A DNA stretch of 64,000 nucleotides from Anaerolineae bacterium (GTDB lineage: Bacteria; Chloroflexota; Anaerolineae; Aggregatilineales; Aggregatilineaceae), in NCBI GenBank assembly GCA_016926875.1, contig JAFGNU010000038.1, forward strand, positions 62,001 through 126,000. The letters run 5' to 3'. The position numbers and the translations under genes were made by a program. A model generated the notes under the pieces. The model saw nothing but the letters and a program-made list of their open reading frames with translations. It made no database searches and was not told the origin of the DNA. Every line of letters starts with the position of its first letter. Position 1 is the first letter of the stretch. Of the stretch, positions 30,057 to 33,128 are shown piece by piece.

Positions 30057-30680
30057 CTACTTGGGTGAACCGGTATTGTTGAGTATGGGCGGTGGAGAGT
30101 CGTCCGGGGAGCCGTTGTAGCGGCTCATGGCGATGTCGATGCCGTCTGTCAGCCAGGTTTCCACAGCCGCGACGGCCCGTTCGACGGTTTGCTCGATCAG
30201 GTCGCCTTCATCATCGTTAAAAGGGCGCAATACGTAAGCTGCCGGGTCCATTTTGCCCGGCGGGCGACCGATGCCAAATCGGATGCGGGCGAAATCCTGC
30301 GTACCGATTCGCCGGATGATGTCGGTCATGCCCTTGTGCCCCCCTGATCCGCCCTTGGACCGGATGCGCAGCGTGCCGGAAGGCATATCCAGGTCGTCAA
30401 AGATGACGATCAGCCGTTCCGGCGGCACTTTGAAGAAGGCCATCAAGCCCTGAACGGATCCGCCGCTCAGGTTCATGAAGGTTTGCGGCTTGGCAACCAG
30501 CGCACGCTTTCCGACGACCACGCCTTCTGCCAGTTTGGCTTTTGAGCGTTTCTTCTGGGCAAAGCTCAGATCGTGTGCCCGTGCCAGCGTATCAACGCAC
30601 CGGAAGCCGATATTATGCCGGGTATTGTGGTATTCTCGACCGGGATTGCCCAGGCCGACGATCAGGTAGGGTACGCTCAT
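30057..30680 (-). CDS. pth: Peptidyl-tRNA hydrolase
   Basis: 207 residues. It frees tRNA from peptidyl-tRNA dropped by ribosomes. Motifs are YLIVGLGNPGREYHNTRHNI with the catalytic histidine (TRHN), LVAKPQTFMNLSGGSVQGLM, VIFDDLDMPSGTLRIRSKGG and GGHKGMTDII. AAGGAC lies upstream of the ATG at 30680; a further-upstream codon would add 12 residues not seen in the family. The end is extended by a proline/serine-rich tail of about 15 residues. It is followed by mfd 19 bases later. Confidence 0.95.
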   Translation of the reverse strand: MSVPYLIVGLGNPGREYHNTRHNIGFRCVDTLARAHDLSFAQKKRSKAKLAEGVVVGKRALVAKPQTFMNLSGGSVQGLMAFFKVPPERLIVIFDDLDMPSGTLRIRSKGGSGGHKGMTDIIRRIGTQDFARIRFGIGRPPGKMDPAAYVLRPFNDDEGDLIEQTVERAVAAVETWLTDGIDIAMSRYNGSPDDSPPPILNNTGSPK

Positions 30681-30730
30681 GTCCTTGTGATGCTGACGGG
30701 TTTTTAGCCAGCGCATTGGATTCTCACCGA

Positions 30731-31640: not shown

Positions 31641-31669
31641 TTGACAGGACTGAAAGGCTGTGGCATAAT
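31641..31669 (+). promoter_or_regulatory. Strong sigma-A promoter for the AIR-synthase-like leader
   Basis: TTGACA (31641-31646), a 17-base spacer and CATAAT (31664-31669). Transcription would begin near 31676, giving a leader of about 214 bases before the ATG at 31890. Confidence 0.8.
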
Positions 31670-31745
31670 CTAGCTATCTTGCGGACAGATAATCCGCTAA
31701 CCCTCCTTCACATTTGCCATCTCAAAAAGAAGGAGGTGGTGTCGA

Positions 31746-31802
31746 ATGAATGATAGTAGTACCAAATTCAGCGCTGTGACACCCCTCCTTCCGATGAAGT
31801 AA
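31746..31802 (+). CDS. Predicted 18-residue leader peptide
   Basis: ATG to TAA encodes MNDSSTKFSAVTPLLPMK. A near-perfect ribosome site, AAGGAGGTGGT, lies just before it, nine bases from GGAGG to the ATG. Codons 9-13 form the left arm of the 13-bp hairpin and codons 14-16 overlap anti-SD copy 2, so a ribosome translating it would change the fold of the leader. An alternative start at 31750 gives a nine-residue peptide in another frame. No family is recognised. Confidence 0.55.
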   Translation: MNDSSTKFSAVTPLLPMK

Positions 31803-31825
31803 GGTGTCACAGCGCGTACGGCTCG

Positions 31826-31856
31826 AAAAGGCTCCCGGTTTGTGAGGGAGTCTTTT
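31826..31856 (+). terminator. Intrinsic terminator in the AIR-synthase-like leader
   Basis: AAAAGGCTCCC (31826-31836) pairs with GGGAGTCTTTT (31846-31856) with one G-T pair and a nine-base loop. It lies 33 bases before the downstream ATG, so read-through is needed for expression. Confidence 0.75.
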
Positions 31857-31889
31857 CCGTTATATGGCATGTTGCAAGGACTCAAGGCA

Positions 31890-32894
31890 ATGCATAACCT
31901 GCCAACCGGCAAACTGTCACCTCACCTGTTAGCCGAACTGCTGCCGCTGCTGCCAACCGGCCCGCGTGTGGTGCTAGGCCCGCGCCTTGGCGAGGATGCT
32001 GCCGTGCTGGACATGGGCGAGCGCTACCTGGTCGCCAAGACCGATCCGATCACGTTTGCGACCGAGGACATCGGCTGGTATGCCGTGCAGGTCAACGCCA
32101 ACGACATCGCCGTCACGGGGGCCACGCCGCTGTGGTTTATGGCAACGGTGCTGCTGCCATCCGGCAGCGCCACAGCAGACATGGGGCGGGCTGTTTTTAT
32201 GCAGATAGCCGAGGCGTGCCGCGCGATCAATGTCGCCGTGATTGGTGGGCACACCGAAATCACGTATGGGCTGGATCGCCCGGTGGTTATGGGCTGTATG
32301 TTGGGTGAAGTGGATAAGGATCACTTGGTTCGGACCGGTGGCGCGCGCCCCGGCGATGCCATTTTGTTGACCAAAGGCGCGCCGATTGAAGCGACGGCGA
32401 TTATTGCGCGGGAAAAACGGGACGACCTGGTCGAGCAGTTTTCGCCGGACATGTTGGATCGCTGCGCGGGCTTTTTGCACGATCCGGGGATCAGCGTGGT
32501 GCAGGATGCGCGGCTGGCTGTCGAGACTGGCGGTGTCACGTCCATGCATGATCCAACTGAGGGCGGTGTTTTAACCGCGCTGTGGGAACTGGCCGAGGCG
32601 AGCGGCTGTAGTATGGCGGTCGATCTATACGGGGAACACAAGCCCTGGCTGGCCGAAGGCGAGGCGCTGTGCAAGGCGCTGAATCTTGATCCGGCGGGCG
32701 CGATTGCGTCCGGTGCCCTGCTGCTGACCGTGACGCCGGATCAGGTTGACCAGATAGTGGCGGCATACAGGCGTGCGCGCATCCCCGTTTACCCGTTAGG
32801 GCATGTTGTCGGAGGCCCTCCGGCAGTGCATGATCGGGAGCGAGGTGCGCTGGCCTGCCCGGCGCGTGATGAAATAGCCAAGTTGTTTGAGTAA
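31890..32894 (+). CDS. AIR synthase-related (HypE/ThiL-like) ATP-binding protein
   Basis: 334 residues of the PurM/AIR-synthase fold, whose members phosphorylate small acyl or amide groups with ATP. The N-terminal metal and ATP region has RLGEDAAVLDMGERYLVAKT, then VQVNANDIAVTGATP; the C-terminal domain has TSMHDPTEGGVLTALWELAE, like HypE and SelD. The C-terminal PRIC-type cysteine tail of HypE is missing, the end being CPARDEIAKLFE, and no hydrogenase genes lie nearby, so true HypE function is unlikely. The ATG at 31890 has AAGGA ten bases upstream; an earlier GTG at 31842 lies inside the terminator stem and is rejected. Expression is gated by the leader at 31676-31889. Confidence 0.82.
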   Translation: MHNLPTGKLSPHLLAELLPLLPTGPRVVLGPRLGEDAAVLDMGERYLVAKTDPITFATEDIGWYAVQVNANDIAVTGATPLWFMATVLLPSGSATADMGRAVFMQIAEACRAINVAVIGGHTEITYGLDRPVVMGCMLGEVDKDHLVRTGGARPGDAILLTKGAPIEATAIIAREKRDDLVEQFSPDMLDRCAGFLHDPGISVVQDARLAVETGGVTSMHDPTEGGVLTALWELAEASGCSMAVDLYGEHKPWLAEGEALCKALNLDPAGAIASGALLLTVTPDQVDQIVAAYRRARIPVYPLGHVVGGPPAVHDRERGALACPARDEIAKLFE

Positions 32895-32920
32895 AATATC
32901 CAAATTAACAAAAGAATGCT

Positions 32921-32950
32921 TTGACCCGCCCCCACGCTTCGCGGTACAAT
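32921..32950 (+). promoter_or_regulatory. Sigma-A promoter for the pyrophosphatase gene
   Basis: TTGACC (32921-32926), an 18-base spacer and TACAAT (32945-32950). Transcription would start near 32957 and leave a leader of about 170 bases, in which I see no clear fold. Confidence 0.65.
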
Positions 32951-33128
32951 GCCCCCTGTTGTCTGGCTGAAATCTCTGATGATCCGAATCTACTACCGAG
33001 ATGGCGATTCCAGAATATCCTGGCAACCAGCGCGGTTTGGACTTACTGGGGGAACAGCCTTATTGAGTCCTGCGGATCACTGGCTGATTGATCGTGGGAT
33101 TCTCCATTAACCAGGAGGGGTACTGTTT

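Follow-up and report, generated by a model that had tools for sequence, protein, structure and literature searches.

Architecture of the locus

The stretch of DNA analysed here, 64,000 nucleotides from an Anaerolineae bacterium and called the window below, carries an element of 217 bases (31641-31857) that joins a promoter, a 5' hairpin, a pyrimidine-rich box, a Shine-Dalgarno (SD) sequence, a short open reading frame (ORF), a hairpin designated B and a terminator (Table 1). The element is a single occurrence in its source genome. An earlier note, made from the letters of the window, had pointed out the promoter, the 18-codon frame behind the SD, the perfect hairpin and the terminator in front of a gene resembling AIR synthase; all four are present. 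A promoter of the grade of TTGACA-17-CATAAT was found once, against 0.3 expected from shuffles, and none of 200 dinucleotide shuffles folded as stably as the element (z -5.45).

The ORF translates to MNDSSTKFSAVTPLLPMK. Its stop codon stands at the end of the loop of hairpin B, and this loop also contains the second copy of CCTCCTTC (31784-31791), as the note had seen. The internal anti-SD overlaps both the 5' arm and the loop of the hairpin. The terminator can be recognised both in the sequence and in the predicted fold; its 9-nt loop lies outside the 3-8 nt limit of our automatic terminator scan, which did not report it.

Table 1. Features of the element and the gene that follows it in the window
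Feature	Position	Strand	Remarks
Sigma-70-type promoter TTGACA-17-CATAAT, extended -10, 11/12 consensus	31641-31669	+	predicted start near 31676
5' leader hairpin GCGGA...UCCGC	31681-31697	+	from the fold; sequence differs among relatives
CCTCCTTC copy 1, local anti-SD	31702-31709	+	not conserved class-wide
GCCATC box, nearly invariant in the class	31716-31721	+	predicted pairing with the SD (helix C)
Shine-Dalgarno GAAGGAGG	31729-31736	+	
Extended Shine-Dalgarno AAGGAGGTGGTGTC, 5' side of helix A	31730-31743	+	
18-codon ORF, ATG 31746 to TAA 31800-31802	31746-31802	+	frame and stop position kept, peptide not
Internal anti-SD GACACC-CCTCCTT, 3' side of helix A	31778-31790	+	holds most of CCTCCTTC copy 2
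Hairpin B, 13 bp, arms 31771-31783 / 31803-31815	31771-31815	+	covarying
Intrinsic terminator, 12-bp stem 31825-31836 / 31846-31857, A and T flanks	31825-31857	+	22 nt past the stop codon
AIR-synthase-like gene (HypE/ThiL/SelD superfamily)	31890-32894	+	Pfam AIRS and AIRS_C; neighbour in some lineages only

Two helices that compete for one segment

The note had described the SD as complementary to two identical copies of CCTCCTTC. The complementarity is real, but its extent was understated: helix A pairs AAGGAGG(U)GGUGUC with GACACC-CCUCCUU through 13 base pairs with one bulge. Both copies of CCTCCTTC exist in the window; copy 1, however, is poorly conserved in relatives, and on this ground we rejected it as a class-wide anti-SD. 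Because hairpin B uses GACACC too, as the inner portion of its 5' arm, complete formation of helix A or of hairpin B precludes that of the other.

The comparison of relatives that the note had proposed revealed stems that are both conserved and covarying. In an alignment of 18 sequences, 97.6% of the cells of hairpin B are paired, with both sides changed at 9 of 14 pairs, while helix A reaches 97.4% with three pairs changed on both sides; extending the alignment to 94 sequences gave double changes at 13 of the 14 pairs of B and 225 compensated cells (shuffles gave 53 and slid registers no more than 17), all of these figures being inflated by the relatedness of the sequences. Helix A covaries only modestly, since the SD itself is almost invariant. 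The duplex of each SD with its native anti-SD has -21.8 kcal/mol, against about -19.5 kcal/mol with foreign partners, and the native pair is the better one at 100 of 123 loci, again with some inflation by relatedness. It is about as strong as the pairing of the SD with the canonical 16S tail (-19.9 kcal/mol).

Helix A has been rewritten yet is still complementary in two loci of the class (L009 and L042) and outside the class. In genome G038 nearly all of hairpin B has been rewritten (GUGUCAUGGCGUC / GACGCCAUGACAC), and the partner of the SD changed alongside, GAGGAGG-U-GAUGUC facing GGCGUC-CCUCCUC. Judged by base complementarity, the mutually exclusive pairing of the SD for which the note had argued is real, and helices A and B, which exclude each other, are both conserved.

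A third pairing is predicted upstream. The GCCATC box (G in 122, C in 123, A in 120 and T in 120 of the 123 class loci) is predicted to be able to cover the SD in helix C. When single sequences were folded, the SD was mostly paired at every stage, with the upstream box, then in helix A, then with the box again; according to this model, an open SD would need the ribosome itself.

Distribution among the genomes of the class and phylum

Of the 17 other genomes in the family, 15 gave a BLASTN match to the element, as did G063 from another family; a covariance model added G038, which brought the set to 18 sequences. The model built from these 18 matched 227 of 396 class genomes at E <= 0.01, nearly always with one copy each; the class and phylum genomes are a sample, and about 120 class loci were read. 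Within the order of the window the distribution is patchy (one family and single members of two others), with a weak extra match in G060 (family f7).

Two parts of the element lie outside the searched model and accompany its matches nonetheless. Upstream of the core, a promoter matching at least 9 of 12 consensus positions was found in 114 of 123 relatives, and a terminator in 102 of 122 loci as compared with 20 of 610 shuffles. Since neither part belonged to the model, they give independent support for the homologues.

A third model revealed weaker homologues in other families of the phylum, and those in f73, f83, f114, f126, f109 and f128 were read individually. In most out-of-class homologues the SD/start region is complementary to a segment within the ORF beyond nearly all of 200 shuffles, and in most the stop codon falls within the loop of a hairpin built with the same segment, which is not clearly the case in f128.

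Several candidates were discarded. Matches of the first model in G141 and G082 are a GGGGAAGGGG-type repeat with neither SD nor ORF; repeats whose GGGGAAGGGG-type arms imitate the hairpin model were also seen at L071, L072 and L084, in several genomes. Pattern matches outside the class (L125-L128) were not confirmed by the model, L256 and L259 were rejected by eye, and in family f76 (L246, L252, L257) helix A did not rise above shuffles. The f76 loci show a possible variant, in which the hairpin doubles as terminator and an ORF of 11-12 codons ends inside it.

The note had recognised no known riboswitch class, in agreement with an Rfam 15 search of the window and 20 related loci, where no family reached its gathering score over the element. 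Matches below threshold to mir-8512, ncS011 and CC2171 were judged to be chance. Chloroflexi-1 RNA (RF01698), like our element a candidate structured RNA and reported from Chloroflexus aggregans, was in the library searched and had no match in the window or the 20 loci. No comparable RNA from these bacteria was found in the open-access literature searched. Judging by Rfam and those papers, this core component is undescribed.

Likeness to the 16S rRNA tail and possible action in trans

Complementarity between the SD and the 3' tail of 16S rRNA is nearly perfect, and the inner segment often copies that tail, with UCACCUC at 67 of 123 loci and the longer AUCACCUCC at 14. Of 10 genomes checked, 7 yielded the tail itself, GGATCACCTCC; the assembly of the window gave no match. 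The resemblance makes sensing of free ribosomes, which the note had raised, possible.

The same C-rich loop could serve another purpose. In an antisense RNA resembling RNAIII, the loop of B (CCUCC, UCACCUC) would pair in trans with the SDs of putative target mRNAs, and the ORF would only control the exposure of the loop. The free-standing gene with its strong promoter and terminator would suit such a role, as would the TCACCTC counted above and the CCTCC present in or beside the loop at 65 of 123 loci. However, the homologues in f73, f83 and f114 keep helices A and B without CCUCC in the loop, and we consider this explanation unlikely.

Staphylococcus aureus RNAIII/hld and SR1 share with the element a free-standing RNA gene, a short ORF and C-rich segments complementary to an SD. 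In the element, by contrast, the peptide shows no selection and the C-rich segment lies within the ORF and pairs with its own SD; it is also much shorter than RNAIII and unrelated to it by the Rfam search. As in dual-function small RNAs, there is an own promoter and terminator and no fixed neighbour; the functional peptide of such RNAs was not found. The downstream-peptide and yfr6 RNAs are likewise small conserved RNAs with a short conserved ORF, the RNA being a 5' UTR and the ORF showing coding conservation (PMC2864571), whereas here the ORF lies inside the structure, the peptide drifts and there is no Rfam match.

Neighbouring genes and the question of attenuation

The AIR-synthase-like gene follows the element in 19 of 123 loci. 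Other recurrent neighbours, named from their sequences, are a homoserine dehydrogenase on the same strand, an HNH-type gene and histidine kinases (convergent). Six genomes of the family of the window retain the element with its terminator and have no AIR gene; their next gene is an H+-pyrophosphatase, which in the window stands behind the AIR gene. In genus g3 the AIR gene is present in two genomes and absent in one at the same locus, thus AIR changed while the element stayed. A search of genome contigs with the AIR protein gave one distant locus.

These neighbours bear on the reading of the earlier note, an attenuation leader of the AIR-synthase-like gene. In its pyrBI-type form, a ribosome following RNA polymerase to the stop codon would block B and the terminator and allow transcription of the downstream (AIR) gene, while slow initiation through helix A would lead to termination. 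Several observations agree with such a scheme: AIR lies close behind on the same strand, no other promoter was found before it, and the stop-to-terminator distance is at most 27 nt at all 19 AIR-followed loci. According to published work, a coupled ribosome represses terminators that lie no further than about 27-30 nt from a stop codon (PMC4824070), and by the 27-nt threshold from that work the spacing is short in 115 of 122 loci, inside the range where control of read-through is possible. Yet loci with a convergent next gene show the short spacing as well (51 of 55), and of 120 class loci only 65 have their nearest downstream ORF on the same strand and 55 on the opposite strand, a count that may include some spurious ORFs, even if several of the convergent neighbours come from families seen repeatedly. 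Moreover, neither helix A nor hairpin B has a base in common with the terminator, and no predicted alternative pairing reaches it.

The leader-peptide attenuators pyrBI, trp and ermC resemble the element in their short ORF, strong SD, mutually exclusive hairpins and terminator soon after the stop, and in that the peptide sequence is not the product. Unlike them, the element lacks a regular downstream gene, a run of codons for one controlling amino acid, and any helix competing with the terminator or hiding a second SD. With AIR missing from six relatives and the neighbours mixed, we rejected an AIR-specific leader as the general function, and a cis attenuator of this type is distinctly unlikely. 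In the lineages where AIR is the neighbour, a cis role may exist.

Other features of the surroundings were recorded. An untranslated stretch of about 230 nt (32895-33128) with a promoter-like TTGACC...TACAAT precedes the H+-pyrophosphatase gene, and a similar stretch lies directly 3' of the element in the AIR-less relatives. Peptidyl-tRNA hydrolases clear tRNAs dropped from mini-ORFs, and a gene for such an enzyme (by Pfam; 30057-30716, minus strand) is close and divergent to the RNA in the window and likewise in some relatives; because other lineages have other neighbours, the proximity is probably a coincidence. In G610 (L244, 3240-6090, minus strand) the RNA stands beside a 23S-5S rRNA operon, convergent to it, and at L107 and L109 clusters of tRNA genes lie less than 1.5 kb from the RNA.

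The reading frame and its peptide

The distance from start codon to hairpin spans 18 to 32 nt, yet at 118 of 123 loci it is divisible by three, and an in-frame stop falls within the loop of B in 122 of 123. The pN/pS ratio is 0.98 before and 1.00 after the helix segment, and 0.73 in the closest N-terminal pairs. At the level of sequence, these comparisons show that the start codon, the reading frame and the position of the stop at the base of B are under selection, whereas the peptide is not.

The N-terminal part of the ORF is rich in serine. In the ORFs of 118 loci, 182 of 230 serine codons are AGT, compared with 10 of 153 in the genes of the window, where this codon is rare. The AGT codons often stand in tandem near the start, and their excess is not accounted for by the helices. 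That the serines are mostly this rare codon suggests that the nucleotides matter rather than the residue.

A gene for a functional peptide of 15-20 residues, its translation limited by RNA structure, would explain the conserved start, frame and stop and the serine-rich N-terminal part, but is highly improbable given a pN/pS of about 1 outside the helix, a conserved AVASP-like core that is dictated by the anti-SD, and the little sequence common to the peptides of other families.

Discussion

The comparative evidence shows an act of translation that is conserved and a gene that is autonomous. We propose that 31641-31857 is probably a free-standing RNA gene of about 180 nt with its own promoter and terminator and a ribosome-gated mini-ORF, in which translation serves as the signal, and not an AIR-specific attenuator. 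Expression is predicted because promoter and terminator are present.

Mechanistically, helix A would close initiation by pairing the SD with the segment inside the ORF, and hairpin B, ending just after the stop codon of the ORF, would take the same segment. A 30S subunit settling on the extended SD, followed by a ribosome running to the stop inside B, would remodel the RNA, which without ribosomes would fall into its SD-closed states; the signal would then be translation itself. Most likely the output would be exerted in trans, by one state of the RNA that acts on ribosomes or on other RNAs. Where AIR or a similar gene follows closely, ribosome-dependent read-through of the terminator could be an added output.

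A more specific version, which we put forward as conceivable though doubtful, would make the element a phylum-wide sensor of ribosome supply. The 3' tail of 16S rRNA and its copy inside the ORF would be alternative partners of the extended SD; the translated fraction would report free 30S subunits, the peptide would be irrelevant and the state of the RNA would signal in trans.

Taken globally, the proposed mini-ORF RNA would be an unannotated gene that is found once per genome in most genomes of the class, as well as in several further families of the phylum. It would follow the logic of a leader peptide, with conserved translation and an unconserved peptide, while usually having no gene to lead. 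As such, it may offer a natural test case for whether bacteria have a dedicated RNA that senses or buffers the availability of ribosomes.
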